A stretch of DNA of 64,000 nucleotides, taken from contig NZ_LMSE01000004.1 of assembly GCF_001428065.1 (NCBI RefSeq), forward strand, positions 489,704-553,703. Direction: 5' to 3'. The notes below the pieces were generated by a model. The model was not told the DNA's origin and did no database searches. It saw nothing but the letters and a program-made list of their open reading frames with translations. The translations under genes and the position numbers were made by a program. Position 1 is the first letter of the stretch, and the number at the start of each line of letters is the position of its first letter. Shown here piece after piece: positions 51,269 through 56,397 of the stretch. The DNA comes from Nostocoides sp. Soil756. GTDB lineage: Bacteria; Actinomycetota; Actinomycetes; Actinomycetales; Dermatophilaceae.

Positions 51269-51901
51269 ATGAGCACCCCCCAGACCCCGCTCGACGAGAC
51301 GCCGACCGAGGTCGACGTCGCCACCGAGACCCCGGCCGAGCGCCAGGCCCGCTTCGAGCGCGAGGCGCTGCCTCTCCTCGACCAGCTCTACGCCGCCGCC
51401 ATGCGGACCACCCGCAACCCGGCCGACGCCGAGGACCTGCTGCAGGAGACCTACGCCAAGGCCTACGCCGCGTTCCACCAGTACCGGCCCGGCACCAACC
51501 TCAAGGCGTGGATGTACCGCATCCTCACCAACACCTACATCAACACCTACCGCAAGAAGCAGCGCGAGCCCCAGCAGTCCGACAGCTCCGACGTCGAGGA
51601 CTACCAGCTGGCCCGGGCCGAGTCGCACACCTCCGCGGGACTGAAGTCGGCCGAGGCGCAGGCGCTCGAGCACCTCCCCGACAACGAGGTCACCCGGGCG
51701 CTCCAGGAGCTGCCCGAGGACTTCCGGATGGCGGTCTACCTGGCCGACGTCGAGGGCTTCGCCTACAAGGAGATCGCCGAGATCATGGGCACCCCGATCG
51801 GGACGGTGATGTCACGGCTGCACCGCGGGCGTCGCCAGCTGCGCGCCCTGCTCACCGGGTACGCCCGTGAGCGCGGCCTGGTCGGAGCGGAGGAGAAGTG
51901 A
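51269..51901 (+). CDS. sigR: ECF sigma factor SigR/SigH
   Basis: 210 residues from ATG 51269. Region 2 ([20 protein letters not shown], then [20 protein letters not shown]) and region 4 ([35 protein letters not shown]) are typical of the thiol-stress sigma factor. An in-frame GTG at 51215 with its own AGGAAGG adds 18 residues ([17 protein letters not shown]...), giving a possible long isoform like SigR' of Streptomyces. The anti-sigma gene overlaps the stop by one base (TGATG). Confidence 0.93.
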
Positions 51902-52170
51902 TGGCAGAGCACCAGCACCAGGGCCACAGCGACTGCTCCGAGGTCCTGCACCACATCTACGAGTACCTCGACGGTGAGATGAGCCCGGAGGACGTCAAGC
52001 GCGTCGCCGGCCATCTGGCCGAATGTCGGCCGTGCCTGGCCGAGCACGACCTCGACGCCGCCGTCAAGGAGGTCGTGCGCCGCTCGTGCGTCGAGCAGCC
52101 GGCCCCGGCGGCCCTGCGGATGCAGGTCGTCAGCCGCCTCACCACCATCCGGATGGACCTCGACGGCTGA
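51901..52170 (+). CDS. rsrA: Redox-sensing anti-sigma factor RsrA
   Basis: 89 residues from ATG 51901 (GTG 51898 is one codon earlier). The zinc anti-sigma motif HLAECRPC (HxxxCxxC), an upstream Cys in SDCSEVLHH and a later Cys near RRSC are present. In Streptomyces, oxidation of these thiols releases SigR. GGAGGAG precedes the start. Confidence 0.92.
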   Translation: MAEHQHQGHSDCSEVLHHIYEYLDGEMSPEDVKRVAGHLAECRPCLAEHDLDAAVKEVVRRSCVEQPAPAALRMQVVSRLTTIRMDLDG

Positions 52171-52187
52171 GGGCACTCCAGACGACG

Positions 52188-52221
52188 AAGGGCCCGGTGT
52201 GCACGTGCACACCGGGCCCTT
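52188..52221. terminator. Bidirectional terminator, rsrA / bL37
   Basis: A perfect 34-base palindrome (arms 52188-52204 and 52205-52221) with flanking A and T bases on both sides. It lies between convergent rsrA and bL37 genes and would serve both. Confidence 0.85.
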
Positions 52222-52235
52222 TCCGTACTCGCCGC

Positions 52236-52310
52236 TCAGGCGTTGGGGCGTCGGCCGTGGTTGGCCTTGCTGCCCTTGCGCGTGCGGCGCTTGCGGGCGC
52301 GCTTGCTCAT
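52236..52310 (-). CDS. 50S ribosomal protein bL37
   Basis: 24-residue very basic protein MSKRARKRRTRKGSKANHGR..., ending RPNA, matching the actinobacterial bL37 seen in mycobacterial ribosome structures. GAGGAG lies upstream of the ATG. Convergent with rsrA, divergent from the secreted-peptide gene. Confidence 0.9.
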   Translation of the reverse strand: MSKRARKRRTRKGSKANHGRRPNA

Positions 52311-52343
52311 GGGGTGCTCCTCAGATGGGTCGTCGAGCGCCGT

Positions 52344-52397
52344 CACCTGAAACAGGTGTGGCCTGAGCGATTGTCGCACACCCGTCCACGTGCGACA
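52344..52397. promoter_or_regulatory. Palindromes upstream of secreted-peptide operon
   Basis: Two perfect inverted repeats lie in the 153-base divergent region: CACCTG-AAA-CAGGTG (52344-52358) and TGTCGCAC-10 bases-GTGCGACA (52372-52397). The second has the size of a dimeric regulator site. They could control bL37, the peptide operon or both. Confidence 0.5.
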
Positions 52398-52463
52398 CTT
52401 CTCAGCATCTCCTGAGCGCCCGGAGCGCGTGGTCAGGAGTGTCCACCTCTGAAAGGAATGTCC

Positions 52464-52595
52464 ATGCGTACTGTTCGCACTGCTCTCGCCGTTCTCGCTC
52501 TCGCCGCCGTCAGTGTTGCCGTCCCGGCTGCCGCTCACGCGGCGCCCTCCGTCGGCAAGACCCCGATCCACAACGGCTTCTCCTGGGGTGGCTGA
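52464..52595 (+). CDS. Secreted small peptide precursor
   Basis: 43 residues. The Sec signal peptide MRTVRTALAVLALAAVSVAV runs to PAAAHA (residue 26), a canonical Ala-x-Ala cleavage site. The predicted mature product is 17 residues, APSVGKTPIHNGFSWGG. GAAAGGA lies six bases before the ATG. The stop is eight bases before the start of a membrane HD-domain protein, and a second such gene follows, so all three look co-transcribed. No cysteines. I recognise no family. The layout suggests a signal peptide for the neighbouring membrane proteins, but that is inference. Confidence 0.7.
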   Translation: MRTVRTALAVLALAAVSVAVPAAAHAAPSVGKTPIHNGFSWGG

Positions 52596-52603
52596 CATCT
52601 CAC

Positions 52604-53872
52604 GTGACGTCTGACGTCAGCCCTGGAGGGCGGCCGTCTCCGAGAGTCGCCAGGTCGACGGCGATCTACATCGGGGCGGTCGCCCTCCTTGCCGTATCGC
52701 TGATGTGGCTCAGTATCGCCCGCTTCGGCCTCGAGCTCAGCCCTGACCTCGCTGTCTTGGTCGTGCTGGCCCTGGGCGTCGTGGTGGCGGGAGAGGCCGT
52801 TGTCGAGGGGCAGGTTCGCCTCTCCTTGTCGAGTGTGCTCCTCCTCGGGGGGCAGGCGCTCGTCGGCCCGTCAGCGGCGGGGATGATCGGAGTGCTCCTC
52901 GGCCTCCTTCAGGTTCGAGGCGCGCCTGCTCACGTGCGCCTGTTCAACGCCGCCCTGGGATGTAGTTACGCCACTCTGGGTGGCTTGGCGTTCATGGCTG
53001 TGGGGGGAGACGCCGACCTGGGGTTGGACCGGTCGGTGTGGTCCATCGTCGCGCATCTCGCGTTGCCCATCCTCGTGGCCGACCTGGTGCAACTCAGTGT
53101 CAATCTCCTGCTTCTCGCCGGGGTGGTGCGCGTCACCTACGGGGTGCCGATCCGGCATCAGGTGGGTGAGCTCCTCGGCAGCGTGGGTCTGACCAACGCG
53201 GGCTACGGCGTCATCGCCTTCCTCCTCGTCCTGCTCTGGGTGCCGGCCGGGATGGGCGCGGCCGCCGTGCTGCTCGTGGTCGCCCCGCTCCTGGTGGCCC
53301 AGTGGGCCTACCGCCAGCACGCCGAGGAGCTCCGGGGGCAGGAACGGGCCCTCCAGGTGCTCGTCGCCGCCGTCGAGGCCAAGGCCCCGCACCTGACCGG
53401 ACACAGCGCCCGGGTCGCCGACCTCGCCGCGGCCATGGGGGAGGCGCTCGGCTTGCGACCCCATACCGTCGCGGACGTCCGGATGGCCGGCATGCTGCAC
53501 GACGTCGGCCAGACCAGCCTGCCCACCGCCCTCGTCCGCAGCGTCGCCTCCACCTCACCCGCCATCGACGACTACCCGCGCCGCAGCGCCGGGATCCTCG
53601 GTGGCCTCAGCTTCCTCGACGGCGCGCTGGCACCCATCACCGACCACCGCACGGCCTTGGACCGCCCGGACGCCCGGGCCGGACTGGCGAGCCGCATCGT
53701 CGGCCTCGCCGACGAGTACGACCTACTCTGCGAGGTCGGAGGCCCGGACGGTGACGTGACGGCACGCAGCGACGCGCTCGAGCAGCTGCGCGCGCGCCCC
53801 GGGGTCGACGACGCCCTCCTGCGCGCGCTCCTGGTGGCGCTCGGACGATCCTCCGCGGCGGCCACCCGGTGA
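52604..53872 (+). CDS. Membrane HD-domain phosphohydrolase-like protein 1
   Basis: 422 residues from GTG 52604. About seven or eight membrane helices occupy residues 15-250, then a cytoplasmic HD domain: GHSARVADLA near 266 and MLHDVGQ near 297-303. It resembles HD-GYP proteins (cyclic-dinucleotide phosphodiesterases), but the Lys after HDxG is Gln and the HHE/GYP motif is only weakly recalled by DHRTALDRP near 348, so the substrate is uncertain. The membrane part could be a sensor. Eight bases after the secreted-peptide stop; overlaps the next gene (GTGA). Confidence 0.8.
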   Translation: MTSDVSPGGRPSPRVARSTAIYIGAVALLAVSLMWLSIARFGLELSPDLAVLVVLALGVVVAGEAVVEGQVRLSLSSVLLLGGQALVGPSAAGMIGVLLGLLQVRGAPAHVRLFNAALGCSYATLGGLAFMAVGGDADLGLDRSVWSIVAHLALPILVADLVQLSVNLLLLAGVVRVTYGVPIRHQVGELLGSVGLTNAGYGVIAFLLVLLWVPAGMGAAAVLLVVAPLLVAQWAYRQHAEELRGQERALQVLVAAVEAKAPHLTGHSARVADLAAAMGEALGLRPHTVADVRMAGMLHDVGQTSLPTALVRSVASTSPAIDDYPRRSAGILGGLSFLDGALAPITDHRTALDRPDARAGLASRIVGLADEYDLLCEVGGPDGDVTARSDALEQLRARPGVDDALLRALLVALGRSSAAATR

Positions 53873-55197
53873 GAGCTGCTCTTCGGGTCGCTCGGCCGCT
53901 GGCCGCAGCGGTCACCCTCGTGGCCGCGGGCCTGGTCGTGACGTCACTGGTCCTCTCCGGTGCGGAGCTGCCCACCCTGCTCGGCACCCACGCCGTGACG
54001 CTCGTGGTCTTCCTCGGAAGCATCGTGATCGGCGAGCTGGTGCGGCTGCGGATGCCGAGTGGGCGTGACACCGCGCCGCTGGCGTCGGCATCGGCCCTGG
54101 CGCTGGCGGTGGTCGGCCCCATCCAGGACCAACCGGTCTTCCAGGTGGGCCCGGGGCTCGTCGTCCTGGTCGTGGCGATGGGCCTGGCCCTGGCCGCGGG
54201 GGCCCGGCGCCTGCGTCACCTTCCGGTCAGCGTGGCGCCGCTGGCCGCGCGGCTCCTCGGGGTCGCGCTGACCGCGTCCATGGTGCGTCAGTGGAGCGTG
54301 GCCGGGTGGAGCCTGTGGGAGGACCAGACCCGCTCCGACATCCCGCGCGGCGTGGTGGCGGTCGGGATGGCGCTGGCCGCCGCCGTGGGTCTGGTCGTCG
54401 AGCTGCTGCTGGTGGCGACCGTGCGGGCGGAGCGCCAGCGCACGCCGTGGACCACGGCCACCCGCGACGAGCTGGGGGAGGCGGCACCCCTCACCTTCGC
54501 CGTGGCCGTGACGGGCCCGATGGTGGCGCTGATGTCGCCGATCCTCGGTCTCCTGGCGCTGCCCGTGGCGCTGGTGCCCCTGGTGATGGCCTACAGCGCG
54601 GTCGGTCAGTACGCCCGCAACCGCGCGACCAACCGGCAGCTGATCGCCACCCTGTCGCGCCTCACCGAGGAGGGTGGCTACACCCCCTCCCGGCACGCCG
54701 AGCGGGTCAGCGACCTGTCGGTGCGCGTCGGCCGGGTCCTCGGCCTCGGGGAACGCGAGCTGCGCGACATCGAGTACGCCGCGCTGCTCCACGACCTGGG
54801 CCAGATCTCGCTCACCGACCCCATCCCCGACGGCGCCACCGTGCTCGCTGCGCCCAGCGACCAGCGTGACATCGCGGCCGAGGGGGCGCGCATCATCCGG
54901 CGGGCCGAGTCGCTCGACGCCGTGGCGCGCTACGTCGAGCTGCAGACCACCCCCTACCGCCGAGTCCGTGAGCTCGGGGAGGAGGTCCCGATGGGCAGCC
55001 GTATCATCAAGTGCACCAACGCCTTCGACGACCTCACCGGAGGCTCCGACGAGCCCGCGGCGGTGGAGGCCGCCATCGAGCGCATCCACCTCGGCCTCGG
55101 CTACGAGTACGACCCGGACGTGGTCGATGCGCTGACCCGGGTCGTCGAGGACGCCACGGCGGGTCGGGTCGGGGAACGGCGGCTGGTCTCGCGCTAG
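53869..55197 (+). CDS. Membrane HD-domain phosphohydrolase-like protein 2
   Basis: 442 residues. About seven or eight membrane helices (10-250) are followed by an HD domain: RHAERVSDLSVRVGRVLGLG near 275 and ALLHDLGQISL near 305-313. It shares the HDxGQ variation with its neighbour. The second-half motif reads ELQTTPYRR where HD-GYP proteins have HHExxDGxGYP. The shared architecture suggests an ancient tandem duplication and perhaps a heterodimer. Starts in the stop codon of the first HD gene. Confidence 0.8.
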   Translation: MRAALRVARPLAAAVTLVAAGLVVTSLVLSGAELPTLLGTHAVTLVVFLGSIVIGELVRLRMPSGRDTAPLASASALALAVVGPIQDQPVFQVGPGLVVLVVAMGLALAAGARRLRHLPVSVAPLAARLLGVALTASMVRQWSVAGWSLWEDQTRSDIPRGVVAVGMALAAAVGLVVELLLVATVRAERQRTPWTTATRDELGEAAPLTFAVAVTGPMVALMSPILGLLALPVALVPLVMAYSAVGQYARNRATNRQLIATLSRLTEEGGYTPSRHAERVSDLSVRVGRVLGLGERELRDIEYAALLHDLGQISLTDPIPDGATVLAAPSDQRDIAAEGARIIRRAESLDAVARYVELQTTPYRRVRELGEEVPMGSRIIKCTNAFDDLTGGSDEPAAVEAAIERIHLGLGYEYDPDVVDALTRVVEDATAGRVGERRLVSR

Positions 55198-55236
55198 AGT
55201 GCGGTACCGCCACCGCCCGCGAGCCCCGAGGACCCC

Positions 55237-56397
55237 GTGGACCGCCTCACCCCCGTCGTCTTCCACGACGCCTGGGGCTCGCACGTCGCGATCGCCGAGC
55301 TGCAGGGGCGCGCGGTCCCCACCCCCGAGCCCGAGTCCGAGCTGTGGATGGGTGCGCACGAGAGCGGGCCGTCCGCGACCGAGCGCCCGGGGCGCCCGGA
55401 CCTGGCCGCTGTGGTCGCCGCGGACCCGCAGGCCGAGCTCGGTGCGGCCTGTGTCGAGCGGCACGGTCCGCGGCTGCCGTTCCTGCTGAAGGTCCTCGCC
55501 CCCGAGCGCGCCATCTCCATCCAGGTGCACCCCACCGCCGACCGGGCGGTCGCGGTGCGTGCGCTCACCGGTGACACCGTCTACGTCGACGACTCCGCCA
55601 AACCCGAGCTGCTGCTCGCGATCGCGCCGTTCGAGGTCTTCGTCGGCATGCGCGAGCCGGCGGCGGTCGCCGAGATCGCGCGGCGGCTCGCCGTCCCGGC
55701 GTTCACCCGCCTGGTGGAGGGGGCCGCTCAGGTCCCGGACCCGGGGCACGCGGTGCTCGCTGCCGTCCTCGCCACCCCCGCCGCCGACGTCGCCGCCCTG
55801 ACCGGCGAGGTCGTCACCGCGTGCGGGCGCCTGGCCCACGACGCCGACGAGGTGGGGCTCGCCGCGGCCGCGGTGGTCGAGGTCGCCCACCTGCACCCCG
55901 GGGACATCGGGCTGGTGGTCCTGCTGCTCATGCACCACCGGGTCCTGGAGCCGGGGGAGTACGTCGACGTGGCCCCCGGGGTGCTGCACTCCTACGTGCG
56001 CGGCCTCGGCATCGAGGTGCTGGCCAACTCCGACAACGTGGTGCGCGCCGGCCTCACGCCCAAGGAGGTCAACGTCCCCGAGCTGCTGCGGATCGTCGAC
56101 CCGACGGCTGCTGCCGTGGCAGGGCGGGGGAAAGCGGCCGGCGACGGCGTCGAGGTCTTCGTCTCGGCCTCCGACCACTTCCTGCTGCACCGGGTCGCCC
56201 CGGGCCGGGTCCTGCCGGGTGCGGGTCCACGGCTGGTCTTCTGCCTGCGGGGTGAGGTCAACCTCTCGAGCGCGTCCGGCTCGCTGACCCTGGGCGACAC
56301 CGGGTCGGCGTTCCTGCCCGCGGGCGAGGGCGAGGTCGTGCTCGCCGGCCGCGGTGAGGTCTACGTGGTGACCGTGCCGGGGCTCGACGCGGGCTGA
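55237..56397 (+). CDS. manA: Mannose-6-phosphate isomerase
   Basis: 386 residues, type I. Zinc ligands lie in ISIQVHP (Gln, His near 91-93), KPELLLAI (Glu) and GVLHSYVRGLGIEV (His near 251), and the active-site Arg in NVVRAGLTPK. It interconverts fructose-6-P and mannose-6-P for glycan and GDP-mannose synthesis. GTG start with GAGGA upstream. Same direction as the HD genes but with its own spacing of 39 bases. Confidence 0.92.
   Translation: MDRLTPVVFHDAWGSHVAIAELQGRAVPTPEPESELWMGAHESGPSATERPGRPDLAAVVAADPQAELGAACVERHGPRLPFLLKVLAPERAISIQVHPTADRAVAVRALTGDTVYVDDSAKPELLLAIAPFEVFVGMREPAAVAEIARRLAVPAFTRLVEGAAQVPDPGHAVLAAVLATPAADVAALTGEVVTACGRLAHDADEVGLAAAAVVEVAHLHPGDIGLVVLLLMHHRVLEPGEYVDVAPGVLHSYVRGLGIEVLANSDNVVRAGLTPKEVNVPELLRIVDPTAAAVAGRGKAAGDGVEVFVSASDHFLLHRVAPGRVLPGAGPRLVFCLRGEVNLSSASGSLTLGDTGSAFLPAGEGEVVLAGRGEVYVVTVPGLDAG

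Follow-up and report, generated by a model that had tools for sequence, protein, structure and literature searches.

A tryptophan-core peptide gene upstream of HdgA/HdgB-like membrane HD proteins: a candidate ligand for an S-component-like domain in Actinomycetes

What does a very small gene do when it stands directly in front of two genes for membrane-bound HD-domain proteins? The question is raised by a stretch of 64,000 nucleotides of contig NZ_LMSE01000004.1 of Nostocoides sp. Soil756 (the window, meaning the whole stretch of DNA that was analysed), in which a 43-codon open reading frame (ORF) precedes an HdgA-like gene, HD1, and an HdgB-like gene, HD2. From sequence comparison and a structural model of HD1 we favour, at a probability of roughly two in three, the reading that the C-terminal tryptophan (Trp) core of the encoded peptide is the ligand of the HdgA-type membrane domain, whose fold resembles the S-components of energy-coupling factor (ECF) transporters. 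Our confidence in the secretion of the peptide, in the side of the membrane on which it would act and in its output is much lower.

The peptide gene (Table 1) translates as MRTVRTALAVLALAAVSVAVPAAAHAAPSVGKTPIHNGFSWGG. An earlier sequence-only reading had described a good Shine-Dalgarno sequence, a Sec-like signal and an AxA site that would release a 17-residue, cysteine-free peptide ending in FSWGG, and all of this is as it had stated, the site being A-H-A; the Trp is third from the end. The same reading had placed HD1 eight bases past the peptide stop and had the two membrane HD genes overlapping, which agrees with the coordinates (4 bases are shared), with Pfam HD_5 matches to HD1 (4.9e-13) and HD2 (4.4e-10), and with an AlphaFold model of HD1 in which eight helices precede the HD domain. 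PF13487 has two matches only in this genome, HD1 and HD2, and there are six GGDEF matches.

The lack of a conserved small ORF upstream of orthologous HD genes had been named as a refuting outcome, and such an ORF was found in 12 of 12 genomes of the window's genus sample (hereafter Phycicoccus) and at 121 of 136 loci of the family (f1 of the genome search). HD1 itself had a match in all 12 genus genomes, and an 8-sequence model used at E <= 1e-30 matched 164 of the 186 genomes in the family and 46 of its 53 genera; loci were read in 136 of these genomes, and the named HD1 relatives are mostly Phycicoccus. In the 12 Phycicoccus genomes the ORF encodes 43-54 residues with a basic start, a hydrophobic stretch and an AxA-like site, and the endings include FSWGG, LGWGG, GYTWQG x4, SFSWGWGN, LSWNWGK, GSWSW, ASWTW, SSWGW x2, NSWSYGG, LGWSYGG, LGWGYGG and FGWNG. 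For the family count an ORF had to carry a Shine-Dalgarno sequence, 18-110 codons, a stop between -300 and +40 of HD1 and a Trp in the last 12 residues; the same filter was passed by 12/136 reverse strands, 69/680 dinucleotide shuffles and 3/136 stretches inside HD1. At each of the remaining 15 loci a Trp peptide was seen by eye, though not blind, for example SVLTWRP x4 (L096), MITQPSLRRSWWWQP (L174) and multi-repeat types with NVDWA, NVEWA, SWDWA, NIDWA and GADWA (genus g27). The gap between ORF and HD1 has a median of 41 nt, with 16 overlaps among 131 loci. Conservation holds for the ORF, present at nearly every locus examined, and not for most of its sequence, which drifts. Secretion could not be upheld as a family-wide trait, as 40 of 133 precursors look Sec-dependent by a crude rule. 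A degenerate HD1 accompanies 34 of the 40 Sec-type precursors versus 27 of the 93 others, 66 of which go with intact active sites, an association that may be due to one clade.

The cores themselves are often repeated. In a set of 134 precursors (the automatic picks at L138 and L172 were poor, other Trp ORFs being seen there; L135 and L141 had no assigned start; L140 and L142 are missing), exact Trp-core repeats of at least four residues occur in 27, of five residues in 24 and of six or more in 22, while residue shuffles of each precursor gave 0.84 such precursors on average and 4 at most. Residue identity was the search rule, and the DNA of the copies differs silently in 20 of the 27 and is identical in 7. 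In genus g44 the N-terminal MKxITTxFESxL is constant and the two cores of one precursor shift in step between species; L092 has four ORFs ending in GPVSIWGWGG with two kinds of leader, and the three ORFs at L104 contain 5, 4 and 5 units of the GYHNWEPKA type.

If the core were the ligand of HD1, the two might be expected to diversify together. Core distance was taken over nine positions around the last Trp and compared by Mantel tests with the HD-domain distance removed. Core and HD1 membrane-domain distances were correlated in the whole set (133 loci; r 0.46, p 0.002) and within Phycicoccus (0.53, p 0.001), g50 (0.65, p 0.003), g30 (0.81, p 0.006) and g42 (0.64, p 0.001), and in these four genera the correlation persisted when the leader was removed as well. 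The reverse test, HD domain given membrane domain, was significant in no set, g44 being nearest (0.30, p 0.074). At 47 loci with HD2, with all four domains modelled, the core went with the membrane domain of HD1 (0.36, p 0.001) and hardly with that of HD2 (0.09, p 0.053). A column-wise scan of five pooled genera, run with 300 permutations after removal of the HD distance, returned z > 3 for 6/13 columns in loop L1, 3/12 in transmembrane helix (TM) 2, 4/11 in TM3, 3/20 in TM4, 6/28 in TM5 and 5/16 in L5; there were 2/21 in H0, 2/14 in TM7, one each in L3, L4, L6, TM1 and TM6, none in L2, the first loop or the linker, and 4/160 in the HD domain.

The modelled membrane domain of HD1 matches the fold and helix arrangement of ECF-transporter S-components, in which L1, L3 and L5 presumably line the substrate site. 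Basic residues of HD1 lie at the N-terminus, in L3 and L5 and less clearly in L1, with few in the remaining loops, and the N-terminus, L1, L3 and L5 together exceed the opposite side in lysine plus arginine at every one of the 133 loci, whether the precursor is of Sec type or not. Because of this charge pattern and the eight helices, L1, L3 and L5, the pocket side, are suggested to lie in the cytoplasm, and the extra last helix with the charge pattern suggests an orientation in the membrane opposite to that of canonical S-components. With the pocket side in the cytoplasm, the ligand would probably be encountered at the inner face, and one would not naturally take HD1 for a simple receptor of an extracellular pheromone. 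The earlier idea of a peptide and its receptor therefore gains from the repeated cores, the co-diversification and the S-component-like fold, and loses from the side on which the pocket is placed.

We propose that the ORF encodes a precursor from which a species-specific peptide signal derives. The C-terminal Trp core of this signal (FSWGG here) would bind directly to the HD1 membrane domain, and the N-terminal half of the precursor would be an interchangeable means of delivery, possibly a Sec signal here and elsewhere a hydrophobic or amphipathic stretch or next to nothing. Core binding would alter the assembly of HD1 with HD2 (their genes overlap, and two genera have them fused) and through it the HD-GYP activity, or, in lineages such as Phycicoccus that have lost the active site, a signalling state instead. 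We infer peptide release, an output in cyclic di-GMP or another nucleotide, and the side of binding; with the pocket side in the cytoplasm, the peptide would be exported and then re-imported, or sensed directly inside the producing cell. In a more specific version, which we hold tentatively and at somewhat short of even odds, HdgA would act as a peptide transceptor, its inverted S-component domain reading the Trp peptide in the cytoplasm, after re-import or before export, and driving an HD-GYP-type second-messenger enzyme or pseudo-enzyme; the system would be an ancient peptide code of the Actinomycetes, accompanied in many families by a structured RNA of its own.

Regarding the two HD proteins, HHE..DG.GYP is kept in 72 of 133 family HD1 proteins and is absent from HD2, and both proteins are degenerate in the window. 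HD2 lacks HHE and GYP and has strongly conserved residues of its own in the HD2 alignment, such as PIPGGATV, TPYR, NAFDDL and GYEYDP; because these are retained, it is probably more than a decaying enzyme. In two genera HD1 and HD2 lie in one long frame (L072:3090-6074 and L089:1358-4231), which suggests that the two proteins work together.

Several observations weigh against a peptide ligand of HD1 or against parts of that proposal. The cytoplasmic pocket side predicted from charge at all 133 loci conflicts with a secreted ligand and with the Sec signals. HD1 of the window retains HD and H348 without HHE or GYP and so does not carry the HD-GYP active-site motif HHExxDGxGYP, which corrects its earlier description as nucleotide-hydrolase-like. 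Strains of S. venezuelae lacking hdgA or hdgB had no detected (developmental) phenotype in the available text of two reports (PMC6205966, PMC13232838). None of seven Streptomyces-like loci has a Trp peptide. HD1 had no match in 22 family genomes; 16 of these were queried for rsrA, which was present in 15, and four of the 15 carry HD1-like genes below threshold without a clear peptide. HD1 can therefore exist without the peptide. As for the co-diversification, Mantel tests leave shared ancestry and close linkage partly in, no co-variation of core and membrane domain was found in g44 (r -0.06), the leader varies with the membrane domain as well, more weakly (0.09-0.29) and significantly in Phycicoccus (0.29, p 0.026), and the HD2 membrane domain correlates with the core (0.21, p 0.001) when the HD domain of HD2 alone is removed. 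The ORF filter was fixed after the first loci had been viewed. Constraint on the peptide is moderate at best, since substitution ratios (Nei-Gojobori-type, equal-length pairs within genera) are not uniformly low: 0.69 in g42 (31 pairs), 0.57 in g50 (19) and 0.56 in g44 (5), with single pairs at 0.38 in Phycicoccus, 0.05 in g45 and 0.97 in g15; a g17 pair shows one replacement and zero silent changes.

For the other 11 of the 15 genomes with rsrA but no HD1 match, neither HD gene lies in the ~1.5 kb downstream of rsrA (one stretch was shorter). Four of these 11 gave filter matches to a peptide, as did two of the four genomes with HD1-like genes below threshold; all were rejected as the end of rsrA or as ORFs unconvincing by eye.

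Outside the family the same arrangement recurs. Near-full-length HD1 was found in f1, f2 and f5 of an order sample (396 genomes, E <= 1e-40), other matches covering the HD domain alone, and the membrane-domain model matched 112 of 394 genomes of a class sample. A short ORF with Trp in its last five residues lies at 45 of 49 loci that are neither of f1 nor Streptomyces-like, and at 7 of 49 on the reverse strand; L231 was left out of this count, the forward match at L249 looks like chance, and at L222 and L227, which are among the four misses, the ORF is visible by eye. The types include M-K/S-K-I-xx-A-V-E-x-F-L...WxW, GW(S/T/N)WW, GISWT and EPGVSWR. Two consecutive short Trp ORFs, MGKLRSVLEQFLSAGSTAKWE and MREENWKWG, the second nine residues long, stand upstream of HD1 at L225, L226 and L230. 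Of 51 loci scanned for RNA structure, 28 were candidates and 27 were aligned (L195 was left out); in these the peptide ORF lies inside a closing helix of ~20 bp, with a second hairpin and a AGCGGAGCGGA motif, and RNAalifold gives 30 pairs, 22 of them with two-sided change at least once (L219:1189-1467 and L221:1195-1466 are among the loci). The structure had no Rfam match at gathering among 7 loci and none at E <= 5 for one locus, and the motif was found at 0 of 136 loci in f1.

This enclosing RNA, the Trp codons near the stop and the closeness of the ORF to HD1 would suit a regulatory leader peptide, in which ribosome stalling at the Trp codons, on Trp starvation or by nascent-chain arrest, controls translation or transcription of HD1 and HD2; some precursors (RTWWWTPVAR, MITQPSLRRSWWWQP) also bear what we take to be a resemblance to trp-operon leaders. 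We nevertheless consider it unlikely, as Sec-type signals (again 40/133 by the crude rule), identical cores encoded by differing DNA, repeated genes and co-variation of core and HD1 are not expected of a codon sensor, and a consensus scan of 51900-55400 found no terminator.

Just as improbable in our view is a small membrane subunit, a structural or inhibitory micro-protein permanently docked on the HD1 membrane domain of the same cell. Precursors free of export signals, the cytoplasm-facing pocket side, the co-variation with HD1 and the constant gene order all agree with it, while several identical cores per precursor, repeated genes and interchangeable N-termini better suit a short ligand that is released or presented. 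A toxic peptide or bacteriocin, for which the HD membrane proteins would provide immunity or maturation, is very improbable: the products are small, Trp-rich and variable, some have Sec signals, and the structured mRNA of other families recalls type I toxin mRNAs; against this, the HD gene belongs to the HD-GYP signalling proteins and occurs without a peptide at the seven Streptomyces-like loci, and the linkage is near-constant, not patchy, at the family loci examined. That the ORF is untranslated and its conservation that of an RNA or promoter element we regard as hardly credible, despite the hairpin and the conserved sequence that Phycicoccus leaders share upstream of the ORF and the covarying RNA structure elsewhere, for the family loci, all of which are without the RNA motif, keep Shine-Dalgarno, start, frame and Trp core, and exact amino-acid repeats occur far above residue shuffles with the DNA of most copies different.

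How would a Trp-core ligand of HD1 compare with known systems? Phr, PapR, SHP and XIP peptides, some with Sec signals and some without, are read inside the cell, and the XIP-type ones carry Trp; their receptors are soluble, unlike the membrane HD protein here. The ComX precursor of Bacillus, in the accessible part of PMC5331326, is short, with a variable C-terminus in which one Trp is constant, mostly 3-4 residues before the end, and shares with the present peptides the Trp near the C-terminus and a gene adjoining that of a membrane receptor (a candidate one in the present case); here, however, the neighbour is an S-component-HD protein and not a histidine kinase such as ComP, and other precursors of this system have Sec signals or repeated cores. 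No comQ-type prenyltransferase gene lies in the window (the genome has 3 PF00348 matches, the nearest on the contig ~341 kb away), and no radical S-adenosylmethionine match (PF04055) was found on the window's contig, the search for enzymes modifying ribosomally synthesized peptides covering these two families. The S. venezuelae genes hdgA and hdgB (vnz24090, vnz24095) are neighbours, very likely in one operon, and encode membrane-bound 6TM-HD-GYP and 6TM-degenerate HD-GYP proteins, according to the available text of PMC6205966. HD1 and HD2 resemble them in gene order, in membrane-HD architecture and in the place after rsrA and are equated with them by layout alone; they differ in that HD1 is also degenerate in Phycicoccus, and in the Trp peptide that the seven Streptomyces-like loci lack. 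LytS/BtsS kinases likewise join an S-component membrane fold to a signalling output domain, although the output here is HD-GYP, a term absent from the main text of PMC11109136. The layout had been thought undescribed; the HD pair corresponds by layout to HdgA/HdgB, and nothing describing the peptide together with the pair was found among the literature matches listed, most subscription papers lying outside that coverage. The locus is best read as a ligand-receptor system that acts like a pheromone-receptor pair and that, in this genome, lacks the defining marks of ComX and of an intact HD-GYP enzyme. With it, proteins of the HdgA/HdgB type, for which the available text of PMC6205966 describes no activating signal, would have a candidate ligand. 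If true, a peptide signal would be read by an S-component-type domain tied to an HD-GYP protein, again without a parallel among the matches listed, and the core-receptor co-diversification makes this testable with synthetic peptides and receptor swaps.

Table 1. Positions in the window of the peptide gene, the HD genes and neighbouring features
Feature	Position	Strand	Details
Peptide precursor gene, 43 codons	52464..52595	+	ATG 52464, stop 52593-52595
Shine-Dalgarno GAAAGGA of peptide gene	52451..52457	+	similar in relatives
Sec-type signal segment, codons 1-26, A-H-A site	52464..52541	+	read by eye
Predicted mature peptide APSVGKTPIHNGFSWGG, C-terminal Trp core	52542..52592	+	read by eye
HD1, HdgA-like: S-component-like membrane domain and degenerate HD-GYP domain	52604..53872	+	GTG start, 422 amino acids
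HD domain of HD1, residues 252-400, HHE and GYP lost	53357..53803	+	Pfam HD_5
HD2, HdgB-like: second membrane HD protein, degenerate HD-GYP	53869..55197	+	GTG start, 442 amino acids
sigR, extracytoplasmic function sigma factor	51269..51901	+	NCBIfam TIGR02947, E 3.6e-103; conserved neighbour
rsrA, mycothiol-system anti-sigma-R factor	51901..52170	+	NCBIfam TIGR03988, E 3.1e-25; conserved neighbour
bL37-like gene, 24 amino acids, between rsrA and peptide gene	52236..52310	-	translation MSKRARKRRTRKGSKANHGRRPNA
Promoter-like pair TTGTCG - 17 - GACACT	52371..52399	+	Phycicoccus leader comparison
Small leader hairpin, CCGGAG loop, upstream of peptide gene	52409..52439	+	alifold of 12 Phycicoccus leaders

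The locus had been said to sit directly after sigR-rsrA, and both genes are indeed upstream, as in Streptomyces-like genomes; the description had passed over the minus-strand bL37-like gene that lies between and has short tblastn matches in some relatives. Upstream of HD1, rsrA was found in the same direction at 43 of 49 loci, in the other direction at 2 and not in the stretch at 4, and HD1 follows soon after an RsrA in 4 Streptomyces-like stretches, one such RsrA matching PDB 5frf (2.8e-55); the HD1 genes of the Streptomyces-like loci are regarded as hdgA from their layout. Ten representative peptides had no Pfam or NCBIfam match over curated cut-offs, and the sub-threshold matches SP_0009 (E 0.16), Phr N-terminus (E 0.65) and BRCA2 OB2 (E 0.0054) were not used as evidence. 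A sigma-70 consensus scan gave no site. The leader hairpin is weak (-4.8 kcal/mol over the whole leader), and its 4 consensus pairs, of several pair types, are each formed in 10-11 of 12 Phycicoccus sequences. All 12 Phycicoccus leaders contain TTGTCGCAC and then nAnnnT 17 nt past TTGTCG, a promoter-like pair that may serve the divergent bL37-like gene instead.

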